64,000 nt of DNA, from assembly GCF_002000125.1 (NCBI RefSeq), contig NZ_MLHH01000010.1, positions 62,001-126,000 of the forward strand, in the 5' to 3' direction. The position numbers were made by a program, and so were the translations under genes. Positions 15,883 to 37,260 of this stretch are shown here, piece by piece. The notes under the pieces are model-generated. The model saw nothing but the letters and a program-made list of their open reading frames with translations, made no database searches and was not told the origin of the DNA. Position 1 is the stretch's first letter. Each line of letters starts with the position of its first letter. The stretch is from Rodentibacter heidelbergensis. Lineage in GTDB: Bacteria; Pseudomonadota; Gammaproteobacteria; Enterobacterales; Pasteurellaceae.

Positions 15883-15927
15883 AAAGTGCGGTCGTTATTT
15901 TCAATAAAAACGACCGCATTTTTATTT
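15883..15927 (+). terminator. Terminator after tig built on an uptake sequence
   Basis: GTGCGGTCG and CGACCGCAT arms with an A/T loop and a TTTTTATTT tail. The left arm is a full uptake sequence at 15883-15892. It likely separates tig from clpPX. Confidence 0.75.
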
Positions 15928-29519: not shown

Positions 29520-32138
29520 TTAGAATAATTCTTCCGGTTGTGCAACGGGGGTCGCATCTTGAATTTTGCCTGTACCGCCATTTAAGCGTTGTTGCAATTC
29601 AGGTGGAACATAATAACCACGCTCTTTCATTTCCGCCACATAGGTGCGTTTTGGTTCTGTACCGACAATAAAATATTCTTTACGCCCACCATATTCTGAA
29701 AGCAATCCCGAATTGCTATCAATGGTTTTCTCCATAATATTTGGCGGTAGCTCAAGATTTCGTTCAGGGATATCGGAAAGGGCAACTTTCATATAGGCAA
29801 TCCAAGCCGGCATGGCCGTTTTCCCACCGGATTCGCCCCGCCCCAGTACCCGTTTATTATCATCAAAGCCTACATAGGTCGTGGTGACGAGATTCGCACC
29901 AAACCCGGCATACCAAGCCACTTTTGAACTATTTGTTGTACCGGTTTTACCGCCAATATCACTGCGGTATTTAATTTCTTTCGACATCCGCCAGCTAGTT
30001 CCTTTCCAGCCTAATCCTTGCTCACCATAAATAGCGGTATTTAAGGCACTACGAATTAAAAAGGCCAGTTCTCCACTGATTACCCGAGGGGCATATTGCA
30101 CTTGGCTATTGCCCTCTTTGGCATCTGCCATAAGGTTTACCGAACCATCGTTTAACATACCGCTTTGGGCTTGTAGCTCCGGTAAATCAGGCACGTTTTC
30201 CGGTTGAACATCTTCTTCCGTATCCGTGTTAGTATTGCCTTTTGCCGCTTTTAAATCATCCGGTTTGGCCACTTCGGCAATGTTTTGGAAACCATCAATT
30301 TTGTCTTTGGTTTCACCGTAAATAACCGGAATATCATGACAGGTGATACAAGCAATTTTCGGGTTGGCAATAAATAAATCCTTACCATTATTGTCTTGAA
30401 TTTTTTCAATAATATAAGGATCGATTAAAAATCCACCATTATCAAATACCGCATAAGCCCGAGCCATTTCAAGAGGAGTAAAAGAGGCTGCCCCCAAAGC
30501 TAACGCTTCGCTGGCAAAATATTGTTCCCGATTAAAACCAAAACGTTGTAAGAAATCAGCGGTAAACCCGATACCGGCAGTTTGTAAGGCTCGAATTGCA
30601 ATCATATTTTTTGATTGACCTAACCCCACTCGTAAACGCATCGGGCCATCATAACGATCCGGTGAGTTTTTCGGGTTCCATACTTTTTGCCCCGGTTTGG
30701 AAATAGAAATCGGGCTGTCTTGCAAAACACTGGAAAGGGTTAACCCTTTTTCCAATGCGGCCGCATAAATAAAGGGTTTAAAAGACGATCCCACTTGTAC
30801 CAATGATTGCGTTGCACGGTTAAATTTGCTTTGTTCAAAACTAAATCCACCCACTAACGCTTCAATAGCCCCATTATCGGAATTTAAAGAAACCAAAGCC
30901 GAATTGGCCGCCGGAATTTGTCCTAAAATCCATTCACCGTTATCACGTTGGCGAATCCAAATTTGATCGCCCACTTTAACCGGGGATTTTCCGGCCCAAC
31001 GCATTGCATTAAATGAAAGGGTCATGGTTTGATGATTAGCCAACAATAATTCCGCCCCATTTTTACCCAATGCAGTCACTGCCGCAGGAATAAAAGGATC
31101 GGAATTGGGTAATTGTTTCAGAAAAGCAACAATGCGTTCAGCCTCCCATGCCGCTTCGCCTTTTTTCCACAAAGGCGCACCGCCACGCCAGCCATGACGC
31201 ATATCATAGTTGATTAAATTTTGACGCACCGCTTTTTGGGCTTCCGCTTGATCTTTAGACAATACGGTGGTGAACACTTTATACCCTCGGGTATAAGCAT
31301 TTTCTTCACCAAAACGTTTTACCATTTCTTGGCGTACCATTTCTGTTACATAATCTGCACGAAAATCAAATTTTGCCCCATGATAGCTTGCAGTGATCGG
31401 CTCTTTAACCGCCGCATCATATTTTTCTTTTGTGATGTATTTTTCATCAAGCATGCGTGCTAAAACAATATTTCGGCGTTCTTCCGCACGTTTTGGGGAA
31501 TATAACGGGTTCATTGTGGAAGGCGCTTTAGGCAAGCCTGCAATCATTGCCATTTCGGACAATGTCAATTCCTCTAAGGATTTTCCAAAATAGGTTTGAG
31601 CTGCCGCCGCAATCCCATAAGAACGGTAACCTAAGAAAATTTTGTTTAAATAAAGTTCGAGAATTTCCTGTTTGTTTAAGGCATTTTCAATTTCGATAGC
31701 CAGCACCGCTTCCCGCGCTTTACGAATCAAGGTTTTTTCCGGTGTTAAGAAAAAATTACGCGCTAATTGCTGCGTGATCGTACTTGCCCCTTGGGAAGCG
31801 CCACCACTGCTTAATGCAACAAACAATGCACGGCCAATACCGATGGGATCAATCCCATGGTGGTCATAAAAACGGCTGTCCTCTGTGGCTAAAAACGCTT
31901 CAATTAAGCGAGGAGGAACGTTTTCTAATTTCACCGGAATACGGCGTTGTTCCCCCACCTCTCCGATTAATTTTCCATCGGCAGTGTAAATCTGCATCGG
32001 TTGTTGTAATTCCACCTCTTTCAACGTTTCCACTGATGGTAATTCGGATTTTAAGTGGAGATAAAATACGCCCCCTGCCACAAGACCTAAAATGCACAGG
32101 GTTAACAGGCTACTGAATATTAATTTTGCGATCCTCAT
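29520..32138 (-). CDS. mrcA: Penicillin-binding protein 1A (bifunctional transglycosylase/transpeptidase)
   Basis: Inner-membrane peptidoglycan polymerase and crosslinker. I chose ATG 32138 (MRIAKLIFSSLLTLCILGLV) after GAGAG rather than a TTG twelve codons upstream. The 872 residues have a membrane anchor (about 5-27), the GT51 transglycosylase domain (EDSRFYDHHGIDPIG, GASTITQQLARNFFL), and the transpeptidase domain with GSSFKPFIYA (catalytic Ser), a SxN-type site and KTGTTNSSK. An acidic insert near residue 660 resembles the usual PBP1A loop. The start overlaps the competence element shared with comA, from which it is divergent. Confidence 0.95.
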   Translation of the reverse strand: MRIAKLIFSSLLTLCILGLVAGGVFYLHLKSELPSVETLKEVELQQPMQIYTADGKLIGEVGEQRRIPVKLENVPPRLIEAFLATEDSRFYDHHGIDPIGIGRALFVALSSGGASQGASTITQQLARNFFLTPEKTLIRKAREAVLAIEIENALNKQEILELYLNKIFLGYRSYGIAAAAQTYFGKSLEELTLSEMAMIAGLPKAPSTMNPLYSPKRAEERRNIVLARMLDEKYITKEKYDAAVKEPITASYHGAKFDFRADYVTEMVRQEMVKRFGEENAYTRGYKVFTTVLSKDQAEAQKAVRQNLINYDMRHGWRGGAPLWKKGEAAWEAERIVAFLKQLPNSDPFIPAAVTALGKNGAELLLANHQTMTLSFNAMRWAGKSPVKVGDQIWIRQRDNGEWILGQIPAANSALVSLNSDNGAIEALVGGFSFEQSKFNRATQSLVQVGSSFKPFIYAAALEKGLTLSSVLQDSPISISKPGQKVWNPKNSPDRYDGPMRLRVGLGQSKNMIAIRALQTAGIGFTADFLQRFGFNREQYFASEALALGAASFTPLEMARAYAVFDNGGFLIDPYIIEKIQDNNGKDLFIANPKIACITCHDIPVIYGETKDKIDGFQNIAEVAKPDDLKAAKGNTNTDTEEDVQPENVPDLPELQAQSGMLNDGSVNLMADAKEGNSQVQYAPRVISGELAFLIRSALNTAIYGEQGLGWKGTSWRMSKEIKYRSDIGGKTGTTNSSKVAWYAGFGANLVTTTYVGFDDNKRVLGRGESGGKTAMPAWIAYMKVALSDIPERNLELPPNIMEKTIDSNSGLLSEYGGRKEYFIVGTEPKRTYVAEMKERGYYVPPELQQRLNGGTGKIQDATPVAQPEELF

Positions 32139-32147
32139 CGTAAAATT
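32122..32147. promoter_or_regulatory. CRP-S (competence regulatory element) in the mrcA/comA divergent region
   Basis: A 26-bp imperfect palindrome with arms AATTTTGCGAT and ATCGTAAAATT. The core is TGCGA-N6-TCGTA; the Haemophilus CRP-S consensus, activated by CRP plus Sxy, is TGCGA-N6-TCGCA, so one base differs. It overlaps the mrcA start codon and lies about 100 bases before comA. A TATGAT hexamer at 32182-32187 would put a comA start near 32195, about 60 bases from the element's centre, the spacing expected for this class. Confidence 0.75.
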
Positions 32148-32236
32148 CTCTCTTGATTGATGATAATAACTCAAACCACATTATGATTTGGCTGCTAAGT
32201 ATAAAAGATTAACCGTCTAAATAATAGGAAAAGCAT

Positions 32237-33070
32237 ATGCCAATACTTCATAAAAAACAGCAAATTATACAAATTGGCGTTCATCAACAACAAAACCAAT
32301 TTCAATTCGTTTGGTTAAATGGTACAAACCAAGTTCAATCTTTTCTACTTTCCGCAGATAAACCAAATATTGAAACGCGATTAATCGCCCGCCTAACCCA
32401 AGATTTTCCCCAAACCCGTTTTAAATTACGTTATATCGGCTGTCTTTTGCCTCATTTGATTTGGTCAAAAACCTTCGTTTTACCTCACAAATTAACCCCT
32501 CAAGAATGTGAACAACAATGCCGTTTTATATTACAAAAAGAATTGCCTATTCCCTTTGAAGAACTTTGGTTTGATTATCTCTCAACCCCGCTAAAACAAG
32601 GTTTTCAGTTAGAAATCTATGCGGTTCGCAGGCAGGTGGCTCAGCAAGCTCAAACCGCTTATACGGGTTTATCCCTAGATGTGTTGGATATTGCCTATCA
32701 TGCTATTTTACGCACATTCCGTTTTCTTTTAGGGGAAGTGCAAAACGATGCCTTATATTTATACCAAGATCAATCCTATTGTTTAGCTCTCAGCCCCTCT
32801 TCCCAAGGCATTAAAACACGACAAACACAAGAAAATTTAACCGCACTTTACCACCAATTTTGCCAACACTTTGAGGTGGAAATCACCAGTGTTTATGTCT
32901 ATCAAACCCCTGATATCGCACAACGGGATATCCCCCAAAGTTGGCAAAGGGTTACCACAACTTTTCCTTTCATCGCCTTAGGCAATGCACTATGGCAAAA
33001 GGATTTACAGCAAAACCCGATTGATTTTTCAACCCTATGCTTAAGTGAAAAGCACAATGAACAGCATTAA
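32237..33070 (+). CDS. comA: Competence protein ComA (PilM-like)
   Basis: First gene of the competence operon. The 277-residue product resembles the actin-like PilM component of type IV pilus assembly on the cytoplasmic side of the inner membrane, though strongly diverged. Identity rests on gene order (comABCDEF divergent from mrcA, followed by nfuA), the competence promoter element and size. RBS TAGGAAAAG precedes the ATG. comB starts within its last codons. An uptake sequence is at 32840-32849. Confidence 0.88.
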   Translation: MPILHKKQQIIQIGVHQQQNQFQFVWLNGTNQVQSFLLSADKPNIETRLIARLTQDFPQTRFKLRYIGCLLPHLIWSKTFVLPHKLTPQECEQQCRFILQKELPIPFEELWFDYLSTPLKQGFQLEIYAVRRQVAQQAQTAYTGLSLDVLDIAYHAILRTFRFLLGEVQNDALYLYQDQSYCLALSPSSQGIKTRQTQENLTALYHQFCQHFEVEITSVYVYQTPDIAQRDIPQSWQRVTTTFPFIALGNALWQKDLQQNPIDFSTLCLSEKHNEQH

Positions 33071-33572
33071 TTTACTTCCTTGGCGGTTAACACAGTATCG
33101 GCAATTATTGCTGTTATTTTTGCTCAAACTCGTTGCCGTATTCAGCCTTGCTTTTTTGCTCTATGCGATATTGACTTGGTTTCAACACCAACAAAAAGCA
33201 GCACTCAATCAGAAAATACAAACCTTTGAGCAACAAAAAGCCCGTTTAATGAAAACCGTTCAACATGTCAGCCAAATGAAACAAAGCATGCAAGATTTAA
33301 CCACATTACAAGCCATTAAACCCGATAGCGTTGCACAGGTTTTATCTTTATTACCTCAATTTCCTTTTCAACAAGGGGAGTTATCCACATTTCATCTTAA
33401 TGACGAGGGAATACAGTTGAGCGGATTTTGTTTGTCACAGCAGGAATTTGAATCATTACACGAATTTCTCAGTTCATCTTTCAGCACGGTCAAATTAACG
33501 CAGTTTAAAACAGAGCAAGGACGTTTGCTTTTTCAGTTTGACCTTCCTTTAGAAAGCGAGAAATCACGATGA
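33057..33572 (+). CDS. comB: Competence protein ComB (PilN-like)
   Basis: A 171-residue inner-membrane protein like PilN: short cytoplasmic start MNSINLLPWRL (the conserved INLLPWR motif that contacts PilM), one transmembrane segment (about 17-41), then a coiled-coil periplasmic part. ATG 33057 is used; it overlaps comA by 14 bases. It overlaps comC by 4 bases. Role: alignment subcomplex of the DNA-uptake pilus. Confidence 0.9.
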   Translation: MNSINLLPWRLTQYRQLLLLFLLKLVAVFSLAFLLYAILTWFQHQQKAALNQKIQTFEQQKARLMKTVQHVSQMKQSMQDLTTLQAIKPDSVAQVLSLLPQFPFQQGELSTFHLNDEGIQLSGFCLSQQEFESLHEFLSSSFSTVKLTQFKTEQGRLLFQFDLPLESEKSR

Positions 33573-34084
33573 AATCAATTATTAAACAGCGTATCCCACT
33601 CGTGGAGAAATGGCTCACTCTGCCCCCAATTTATCACTGGGGATTTTTTATTTGCTGTTTAAGTGCGGTCAATTTTACAGTGGTTTTGGAAAGCTGGGAT
33701 ACCTATCAACAAGAGCTGACCTTAACACAAAATATCACCCAACAATCCGCAGAATTAACCCACCAAGAAAAATGGCTTACGACCTTAAAAAAACATTCTG
33801 AACAACGAGAGTTATCCCCTCAGCTAACAAAGCAAATTGTGGCATTAGATGAACACCTTCACCAATTATTAACGGGTAAAATCGAACTCATTGAATATCA
33901 ATGGGATTTTTCCTCTCAACCAATTTTACAAGTGCAATTAATGGGGCAATTCCATGCTTTATCTCATTTTCTCAACGCAGTTTTAGAACAGCAATCCCTT
34001 TCTTTTGTGCAATTAGTGATAGAAAAAACAGAAAAAGGGAAGCTGCAAAGTCATCTTGTTTTACAACTGAAAAGGAAAGCATAA
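33569..34084 (+). CDS. comC: Competence protein ComC (PilO-like)
   Basis: A 171-residue PilO-like inner-membrane protein with one hydrophobic segment (about 22-40), a coiled-coil region and a C-terminal small domain (QPILQVQLMGQFHALSHFL). It overlaps comB by ATGA and is followed by comD after 2 bases. It probably dimerises with ComB in the periplasm. An uptake sequence core at 33661-33669 lies inside the transmembrane coding part. Confidence 0.88.
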   Translation: MKSIIKQRIPLVEKWLTLPPIYHWGFFICCLSAVNFTVVLESWDTYQQELTLTQNITQQSAELTHQEKWLTTLKKHSEQRELSPQLTKQIVALDEHLHQLLTGKIELIEYQWDFSSQPILQVQLMGQFHALSHFLNAVLEQQSLSFVQLVIEKTEKGKLQSHLVLQLKRKA

Positions 34085-34086
34085 AG

Positions 34087-34479
34087 ATGAAGATATCAGG
34101 TTATTTTTTAGGGCTATATTGCCTCTTGTTCTGTTTTAACGCACAAGCCACCGATCCCTTTGACTATCACCAACGTCAAACAGGAGAAAACCACCTCAGT
34201 ATTCCCAAAATACAGAAAGAAAAATGTGTTTTTAAAGAGCCAGCCTTTGCCACGGAAACCGCTTTTATCCAGCTCAAATTAGTGGGGGTGGTGCTTTATA
34301 AAAATAGACCAGAAGCCCTGTTTTTAGATCCAAATCAACAATTGATCGTTGCCAAATCTGGTTATCGCTTGGGGCAAGAAGGCTATTTAATAAAACAGAT
34401 TGGAAAAAATGGTGTGGAACTGTTGCATTCAAAAATAGGGCAATGTGAACAGACAGACCCCTTAGTATTGAGATTTTAG
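34087..34479 (+). CDS. comD: Competence protein ComD (PilP-like)
   Basis: A 130-residue secreted protein like PilP, the periplasmic link between the inner-membrane complex and the secretin. I used ATG 34087 (MKISGYFLGLYCLLFCFNAQA), which gives a signal peptide; a longer frame upstream is a shadow of comC. The C-terminal half (FIQLKLVGVVLYKNRPEALFL, KIGQCEQTDPLVLRF) fits the beta-sandwich domain. It contains a cysteine pair (KEKCVF, GQCEQ). comE follows after 8 bases. Confidence 0.87.
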   Translation: MKISGYFLGLYCLLFCFNAQATDPFDYHQRQTGENHLSIPKIQKEKCVFKEPAFATETAFIQLKLVGVVLYKNRPEALFLDPNQQLIVAKSGYRLGQEGYLIKQIGKNGVELLHSKIGQCEQTDPLVLRF

Positions 34480-34487
34480 GAGGAGAA

Positions 34488-35876
34488 ATGAAAAGAGGAC
34501 TTAAAAAGTGCGGTGTCTTTTTGCTCAGTTTTTATTGTGCTGATTTGTTATCGGCGCAATTGAAAGAAAACCCAATATTTGATCTTCGATTAAAACAAGC
34601 GCCTCTCGTTTCAACCTTACAAGAACTGGCATTGATGCAAGAAACCAATTTAATTATTGATGATGAATTGGAGGGATCCCTTTCCTTACAACTCGACAAT
34701 GTTGATTTTGACCTTGTGTTACGTTCTGTCGCCCAAATGAAAGGCCTTTCTTTACGGCAGGAAGAAGGCATTTATTATTTAGGGAAAAAAACATTATCCT
34801 CTGTGGCAATCTCATCGTTGCCTAGTGGGCAAGATATTTTAGAGCAACTCAAACCTCCGCCCCCCACGCTTGTGAGCAAAACCATTAAACTCCATTTTGC
34901 GAAAGCCTCAGAGGTAATGAAATCGCTCACAACAGGAACCGGTTCGTTGCTTTCTCCTGTAGGAAGCATTGCTTTTGATGAACGGAGTAACCGGTTGATT
35001 ATTCAAGATGAAACCCAATCCGTCAAAAACCTTGTGAAACTCATTAAAGAACTGGATAAACCCATTGAACAAATTGCCATTGAAGCCCGAATTGTCACCA
35101 TCACCGATGAAAGCCTTAAAGAATTAGGTGTACGTTGGGGGATTTTTTCACCAGCAGAAAATGCTCACCGAGTGAGTGGAAGCCTTGAGGCAAAGGGCTT
35201 TACAAATTTAACGGATAATTTGAATGTGAATTTTGCAACCAATATCACCCCGGCAGGCTCGCTCGCATTACAGGTTGCCAAAATTAATGGTCGGTTACTG
35301 GATTTAGAACTCACCGCCCTTGAGCGTGAAAACAATGTCGAAATTATTGCCAGCCCAAGGTTGCTGACAACCAATAAAAAAAGCGCCAGCATAAAACAAG
35401 GCACAGAAATTCCCTATGTAGTCACAAATGGAAAGAGTGAAACCCAATCTGTTGAATTTCGTGAAGCTGTGTTAGGGCTGGAGGTTACCCCCCATATTTC
35501 TAAAGACAATCATATTCTGCTGGATTTATTAGTCAGCCAAAATTCACCGGGAAGCCGTGTGTCCTACGGGAAACAAAATAATGAAGTGGTATCCATCGAT
35601 AAACAAGAAATCAATACACAAGTTTTTGCCAAAGATGGAGAAACCATTGTATTAGGCGGGGTATTTCACGACACCATTGCCAAAGTGGTGGATAAAGTTC
35701 CCCTATTGGGAGATATCCCTTTGATAAAACGCTTATTTAGCAAAGAAAGCGAACGCCACCAAAAACGAGAGTTAGTCATTTTTGTGACACCTCATATTAT
35801 CAAACCAAGGAAAACTGCTGACAATGCAAGCCAACATAGGGAAATAAAAGTAGGGGAAATAAAAGTAGGGAAATAA
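34488..35876 (+). CDS. comE: Competence secretin ComE (PilQ-like)
   Basis: Outer-membrane secretin through which the competence pilus and DNA pass. The 462 residues have a signal peptide (about 1-23), N-terminal N0/N1-like domains (to about 185) and a secretin barrel (about 200-440) with VPLLGDIPLIKRLFSKES and LVIFVTPHIIKPR at the end. The last twelve residues are a repeat (EIKVGEIKVGK) encoded by a tandem DNA repeat that also forms the comF ribosome-binding site. An uptake sequence is at 34505-34514. Confidence 0.94.
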   Translation: MKRGLKKCGVFLLSFYCADLLSAQLKENPIFDLRLKQAPLVSTLQELALMQETNLIIDDELEGSLSLQLDNVDFDLVLRSVAQMKGLSLRQEEGIYYLGKKTLSSVAISSLPSGQDILEQLKPPPPTLVSKTIKLHFAKASEVMKSLTTGTGSLLSPVGSIAFDERSNRLIIQDETQSVKNLVKLIKELDKPIEQIAIEARIVTITDESLKELGVRWGIFSPAENAHRVSGSLEAKGFTNLTDNLNVNFATNITPAGSLALQVAKINGRLLDLELTALERENNVEIIASPRLLTTNKKSASIKQGTEIPYVVTNGKSETQSVEFREAVLGLEVTPHISKDNHILLDLLVSQNSPGSRVSYGKQNNEVVSIDKQEINTQVFAKDGETIVLGGVFHDTIAKVVDKVPLLGDIPLIKRLFSKESERHQKRELVIFVTPHIIKPRKTADNASQHREIKVGEIKVGK

Positions 35877-35879
35877 AAG
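35837..35879 (+). repeat. Tandem TAGGG(G)AAATAAAAG repeat at the comE/comF junction
   Basis: Three head-to-tail units of 14, 15 and 14 bases: 35837-35850, 35851-35865 and 35866-35879. The middle unit has an extra G. The units encode the comE tail; the last supplies the comE stop (TAA) and, as AGGG before GTG, the likely ribosome-binding site for comF. The third merges into the uptake sequence at 35876-35885. Confidence 0.85.
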
Positions 35880-36577
35880 TGCGGTTAAATTTCAGTGCGT
35901 TTTTTCAATTTAATTGTGTGTTATGTCAATCCACGTTAAAACAAGGGAGAAATGGGTTGTGTTCAAGGTGTCAAAAACAAATTCAACGCACGCCCTATTG
36001 TGGAGGCTGCGGTGCAGCATTGCAATATGCCGCCCATTATTGTGGAAATTGTCACCGCCATGCATATATTTGGGATCGAATGGTTATCATCGGTCGTTAT
36101 CATGCTCCGCTTTCACAGCTCATTCATCGTTTTAAATTTCAAAAACAATTTTGGCTTGATCATACCTTAGCCCGCTTGTTATTACTGGCACTTTATGAAG
36201 CAAGGCGAATAAACGGATTAACTTTCCCTCAAGCGATCATTCCCATTCCACTTCATCATTTTCGACATTGGCAACGGGGTTATAATCAAGCAGATTTATT
36301 AGCGAAAATCCTCAGCCGGTGGCTTGAAATTCCTTGTTTATCCCATATTGTTAAGCGAACAAAGCATACGCCGACCCAACGGGGCTTAACCGCCACCGCT
36401 CGCCGTCAAAATTTAAAAAACGCCTTTAACATTGAATATGATGCCCCGTTTCCTTATCAACGGGTTGCCTTAGTTGATGATGTGATCACAACCGGCAGCA
36501 CCGTCAATGAGGTAGCAAAATTACTACGTCAATTAGGCGTTCAGGAAATACAAGTATGGGGGCTGGCACGGGTTTAA
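35879..36577 (+). CDS. comF: Competence protein ComF (phosphoribosyltransferase-like)
   Basis: Needed in Haemophilus for moving DNA across the inner membrane. The frame opens with GTG at 35879 inside an uptake sequence, 8 bases after AGGG, and gives 232 residues; no early ATG exists, though a later alternative start is possible. It has an N-terminal zinc-finger-like set of CxxC pairs (CVLC, CSRC, CGGCG, CGNC) and a PRPP-type loop VALVDDVITTGSTVNEVA. It is the last gene of the operon. Confidence 0.92.
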   Translation: MRLNFSAFFQFNCVLCQSTLKQGRNGLCSRCQKQIQRTPYCGGCGAALQYAAHYCGNCHRHAYIWDRMVIIGRYHAPLSQLIHRFKFQKQFWLDHTLARLLLLALYEARRINGLTFPQAIIPIPLHHFRHWQRGYNQADLLAKILSRWLEIPCLSHIVKRTKHTPTQRGLTATARRQNLKNAFNIEYDAPFPYQRVALVDDVITTGSTVNEVAKLLRQLGVQEIQVWGLARV

Positions 36578-36675
36578 TCAGATTGAACAATAAGTGTAAT
36601 TCTGATAAAAAAGTGGAAAAAAGAGCAGGCTAGGCGTATCATCTGACAAATTTTCTCAAGTATTAAGGAATTTTT

Positions 36676-37260
36676 ATGGAACAAATTGCGATTTCCGAAG
36701 CTGCACAGGCACATTTTCGTAAATTATTAGCCACCCAAGAAGAAGGCACGAATATCCGTATTTTTGTGGTTAATCCCGGCACACCCAATGCCGAGTGTGG
36801 CGTATCTTATTGCCCGCCAAGTGCCGTGGAAGAAAGTGATATTGAAATGAAATACGACGGTTTTTCCGCCTTTATCGATGAAATCAGTCTACCTTTTTTA
36901 GAAGAGGCCGAAATTGATTATGTGACAGAAGAATTGGGCGCACAGCTCACCTTAAAAGCACCCAATGCCAAAATGCGTAAAGTGGCCGATGATGCACCGC
37001 TGATTGAACGGGTTGAGTATGTCATTCAAACTCAAATTAACCCACAGTTAGCCAGCCATGGTGGACGCATCACCCTGATTGAAATTACAGAAGACGGCTA
37101 TGCCGTTTTACAATTTGGCGGTGGGTGCAATGGTTGCTCAATGGTCGATGTCACCTTGAAAGATGGCGTGGAAAAACAATTAATCAGCCTATTCCCGGAT
37201 GAATTAAAAGGGGCGAAAGACATCACAGAACATCAACGTGGTGAACATTCTTATTATTAA
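36676..37260 (+). CDS. nfuA: Fe-S biogenesis protein NfuA
   Basis: Carrier that delivers 4Fe-4S clusters. The 194 residues combine an A-type-like N-terminal domain (about 1-95, degenerate) and a C-terminal Nfu domain with the cluster-binding CxxC in [28 protein letters not shown] precedes the ATG. It follows comF after about 100 bases, an order shared with H. influenzae as I recall, and may be partly cotranscribed. Confidence 0.96.

Follow-up and report, generated by a model that had tools for sequence, protein, structure and literature searches.

Three known systems come closest to the repeat described here. Minisatellites in bacterial coding tails resemble it in having head-to-tail units of 14–15 bases, in lying within an unconserved C-terminal tail, and in being found in one genome of those examined; unlike them, the present array carries in its last unit the probable ribosome-binding site of the next gene, and overlaps an uptake signal sequence (USS). 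Phase-variable simple-repeat (contingency) loci of the Pasteurellaceae, which are built from many short units or from a homopolymer of about 7 or more, also have a reading frame that depends on repeat length, whereas the array consists of three 14–15-base units of mixed length, with a longest G run of 4 and no long tetranucleotide or homopolymer tract. The closely spaced comE-comF pair of Rodentibacter has its stop and start two bases apart (9 of 14 congeners), as does the locus studied here, which differs in having two extra copies of the junction segment upstream.

The locus lies in a stretch of 64,000 nucleotides from Rodentibacter heidelbergensis, analysed as a whole and referred to below as the window. 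The array very probably represents a tandem duplication, private to this lineage and probably recent, of the segment joining comE to comF, with comF still started from the last unit.

Anatomy of the array and the ComE tail

The following features were assigned, in window coordinates.

34488–35876, plus strand: comE, PilQ-type secretin, 462 aa (TIGR02515, E 3.2e-123, above cut-off, residues 32–439; Pfam Secretin, residues 277–439)
35805–35876, plus strand: unconserved ComE tail, residues 440–462, and stop (residue 439 is the last in both the PilQ and the Secretin match)
35837–35850, plus strand: unit 1, 14 bases, within comE
35851–35865, plus strand: unit 2, 15 bases (four G), within comE
35866–35879, plus strand: unit 3, 14 bases, with the comE stop (35874–35876) and the probable comF Shine-Dalgarno (duplex −5.8 kcal/mol)
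35877–35885, plus strand: USS AAGTGCGGT, overlapping the comF start
35879–36577, plus strand: comF (ComF/GntX-like), GTG start, 232 aa (NCBIfam GntX, E 6.2e-70; comF, E 6.7e-65)

The array occupies 43 bases (35837–35879), and its three head-to-tail units are near-identical but imperfect copies. The unit lengths of 14, 15 and 14 bases given in the initial annotation were confirmed both by the positions and by Tandem Repeats Finder (TRF; period 14, 3.1 copies, score 79, the highest in the window), the TRF match running on to 35880 and unit 3 itself ending at 35879. The span originally assigned to the repeat, 35837–35885, was retained as far as 35879; positions 35881–35885 are non-repeat, and 35877–35885 form the USS, which overlaps the last three bases of unit 3. 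Dinucleotide-preserving shuffles of the window (n = 40) gave best scores of 36–62, and since none (0/40) reached 79, the array is well beyond chance, its head-to-tail copies making it a tandem repeat array (minisatellite). It is not exceptional for the genome, because a 464-kb sample of this genome, made up of the window and a further 400 kb, contained stronger arrays at six other places, with top scores of 128–1438 and units of 18 to 284 bases, longer than those at comE/comF.

The unit was also considered as a dispersed repeat, and this was rejected: the only occurrence of its pattern elsewhere in the genome was a lone variant copy, which lies on a different contig and has no comE tail nearby. 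Other matches of the array region in its own genome sit on the USS part of the query. Viral contigs were also searched, and gave 0 hits to the array.

ComE was placed among the PilQ secretins by a score of 411.9 bits against TIGR02515 (cut-off 284.35); two HofQ models also matched, below their cut-offs (411 of 554; 336.6 of 598), and a Pfam STN match was below its cut-off. As first proposed, the repeat codes for the ComE tail: the array supplies the last residues of the protein, translation entering unit 1 as CAT AGG and continuing as HREIKV-GEIKV-GK to the stop within unit 3. On comparison with 19 sequences (14 congeners and 5 Haemophilus), the tail past residue 439 had 2–5 identities over 17–22 aligned positions, compared with 90–94% identity over the preceding ~177 residues.

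Start of comF and ribosome-binding potential of the units

The comF product scored 218.6 bits against the NCBIfam comF model, under the curated cut-off of 233.55, and its GntX match was likewise under cut-off; DZR_2 (double zinc ribbon) and Pribosyltran (phosphoribosyltransferase) domains both passed their Pfam cut-offs, and this ComF-like gene lies downstream of comE, in the same order as in relatives. A start upstream of 35879 was ruled out by the absence of any ATG, GTG or TTG in the comF frame between the stop at 35837 and that position; from this, and from the position of the start in relatives, comF is predicted to begin at GTG 35879. The last unit does lead into a USS holding this GTG, as originally described (AAGTGCGGT at 35877–35885), and the start codon of comF is probably supplied by the USS. 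Loci of the H. parainfluenzae group have an ATG in frame a few codons past the position of the comF GTG, and two of them with identical junctions (L008 and L084) are without that GTG.

Exact copies of the USS numbered 46 in the window, compared with 0.37 expected. The only other USS GTG serving as the first start of an open reading frame of more than 90 aa in the window is at 15886, where a later ATG is the likely start of a putative clpP.

Each unit had been held to look like a ribosome-binding site, which is correct in that all three pair with the anti-Shine-Dalgarno sequence (at best −5.9, −6.4 and −5.8 kcal/mol for units 1, 2 and 3, respectively). Neither unit 1 nor unit 2 is a start signal, as ATG, GTG and TTG are absent from every frame over 35825–35878; a functional ribosome-binding site with a start codon behind it is therefore not duplicated, only the G run of unit 3 having such a codon. 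The Shine-Dalgarno of comF, −5.8 kcal/mol here, was at −4.3 to −7.0 kcal/mol in 9 named Rodentibacter loci (−4.3 to −6.2 without L010, the source of the −7.0 value, whose scored GTG may not be the comF start), and at −1.8 to −2.3 kcal/mol in four H. parainfluenzae-group loci; that of comE itself pairs at −10.2 kcal/mol. comF can be served only by the last unit, whose strength is inside the range of its relatives. The expectation that changes in the repeat would move the comF start signal was not upheld: this signal is confined to the last unit together with the USS, and would therefore stay in place if copies were gained or lost upstream.

Extra ribosome-binding units might instead increase the translation of comF by serving as a standby or loading site. 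This is unlikely, although all three units pair with the anti-Shine-Dalgarno sequence (−5.8 to −6.4 kcal/mol at best) and the RNA around them (35800–35930, 131 bases) is less structured than its shuffles (z +1.75), since units 1 and 2 are translated as ComE with no start behind them, and one unit of similar strength suffices in the named relatives. A stable RNA structure at the array was considered separately and rejected, 197 of 200 shuffles folding at least as well.

Over 32100–36700, 12 promoter-like sites were found (shuffle mean 10.9), as were 8 terminator-like sites (shuffle mean 5.0), both counts being close to the shuffled level. One terminator-like site lies on the minus strand directly before the array (35836–35816). 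Upstream of comA, TTGCGATCCTCATCGTAAAA at 32126–32145 resembles a CRP-S competence site.

The comE-comF junction in related genomes

The exact two-unit pattern (units next to each other, with the TA of the first left off) was found in 0 of 139 other Pasteurellaceae genomes and in 1 of 140 overall, the genome of the array itself, in a search for exact matches only, which diverged arrays would escape. For the closest comparison, 14 congeners were used (genomes grouped in one genus with the array genome, one per species), which match the array region at 71–84% across aligned stretches; their junctions were read directly, and the array was present in none (0/14). The duplicated signal had been called unusual, and its exact form was indeed absent from every other genome searched.

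Most congeners have a one-unit junction (GGAAATAAAAGTGCGG and similar), comprising a weak Shine-Dalgarno, the comE stop and the comF start. The gap from comE stop to comF match, 2 bases in the nine congeners noted above, is 1 base in G007 and 14 bases in G014. The comF match starts 74, 95 and 96 bases past the comE stop in G005, G003 and G001, respectively (in the L060, L061, L062 set), so that these genomes may have either an insertion at the junction or a moved comF start; in G001 and G003 the comF match begins only at residue 6, and the true start may therefore be nearer.

A further 29 loci of the family were examined, of which 8 had no comE tail and were left out of the count; the array was present in none of the 21 with a readable tail. 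The tail motif was recovered in 14 of the 27 loci L001–L027, and those that gave none (L013, L014, L016–L026) were excluded. Other, weaker TRF repeats were found within 300-base stretches in 6 of the 21 loci, the strongest with a score of 61 (L098, period 25, 49–96 bases past the comE stop). Application of TRF to 20 junction stretches of 500 bases gave scores of 79 in the array genome (G000; the array), 35 and 40 in G014 (ComE tail), 37 in G005 (ComE tail), and 44 in one H. parainfluenzae locus (after the stop). These scores are at most a weak sign that the comE/comF spot is prone to repeats, because shuffled 64-kb windows also peak at 36–62.

The ComE tail of G014 has a short in-frame repeat of its own, KPKPKPKPK. 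In R. trehalosifermentans (L001, L056), a six-base in-frame repeat in the ComE tail gives KPKPKPKPK. Several congeners have ComE tails identical to those of named Rodentibacter strains, for example L056 and L001 of this species, and L057 and L002 of R. rarus, which probably places the group in Rodentibacter.

Confinement to one genome, and a draft assembly of 33 contigs, could point to an assembly or sequencing artefact. This is almost certainly not the explanation, as the comE and comF frames are both intact around the array, and 43 bases is shorter than a typical read.

Reading frame and origin of the array

Each 14-base unit shifts the phase by one, and the 15-base unit is neutral. By hand arithmetic with a stop table, the ComE frame closes in the second 14-base unit met, however many 15-base units intervene. 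If there were one 14-base unit or none, ComE would continue in the frame of comF, which has no stop between 35840 and the GTG. The proposal that the G count decides the frame was correct for units 2 and 3 as read by ComE, and failed for unit 1, where ComE arrives in a different phase and so reads on despite a run of three G. Slippage would change the ComE tail, or decide whether ComE stays separate from ComF or reads on into comF.

These frame relations, with shifting by 14-base units, preservation by the 15-base unit and an open comF frame from 35840 to the GTG, speak for a slippage switch, in which ComE would alternate between an independent protein and read-on into comF as 14-base units are gained or lost. 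Such a switch is very improbable: there are only three imperfect copies, the G runs of just 3–4 are short for homopolymer switching, and the array is missing in all 14 congeners read. To our knowledge, a switch that fuses two competence proteins is without precedent. Scarcely likely, too, is a reading-frame switch based on the mixed 14- and 15-base units, by which ComE would read into comF or stop earlier, and the secretin tail and the coupling to comF would vary within the population. Nothing in the results favours either slippage switching or enhanced translation.

For the favoured explanation, tandem duplication of the joining segment, the ancestral state would have been one copy, with a weak Shine-Dalgarno, the comE stop, and the comF GTG inside the USS. 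Duplication would have placed two more units upstream of the original copy, in the unconserved tail of ComE, adding REIKVGEIKV to the protein; the comE stop would have stayed two bases ahead of the comF GTG, with comF initiating from the last unit, probably by translational coupling from comE. The duplication is probably neutral, and tolerated because its position in the unconserved tail leaves the comE stop, the ribosome-binding site and the comF start downstream of it. Its most likely effect is a few extra residues in the unconserved ComE tail, the signal of the next gene being ordinary. The near-identity of the three copies could reflect either a recent origin or selection.

As it stands, the array matters little and is a minor curiosity. 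It hints that insertions are tolerated at the comE/comF junction when they lie ahead of the comE stop, ribosome-binding site and uptake sequence; if the number of units varied among strains, the competence operon would contain a repeat that affects reading frame, and this would merit further attention. No earlier report of this array was found in the available portions of the literature on comE/comF, Rodentibacter competence or phase variation (PMC1626085 included), and no wider claim is made.

Other repeats were noted at further loci. A 95-bp tandem array on a CTCCCCTAACCCCTC...AAGAGGGG element was found at L123:19129–20000 (9.2 copies) and in the adjacent L124:1–216 (2.3 copies). Repeats with periods of 87, 123 and 210 bases at L117:452–2224 are perhaps, as a guess, coding repeats of a putative surface protein. 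At L109:8724–8872, an 18-base unit is repeated in 8.3 copies (score 256).
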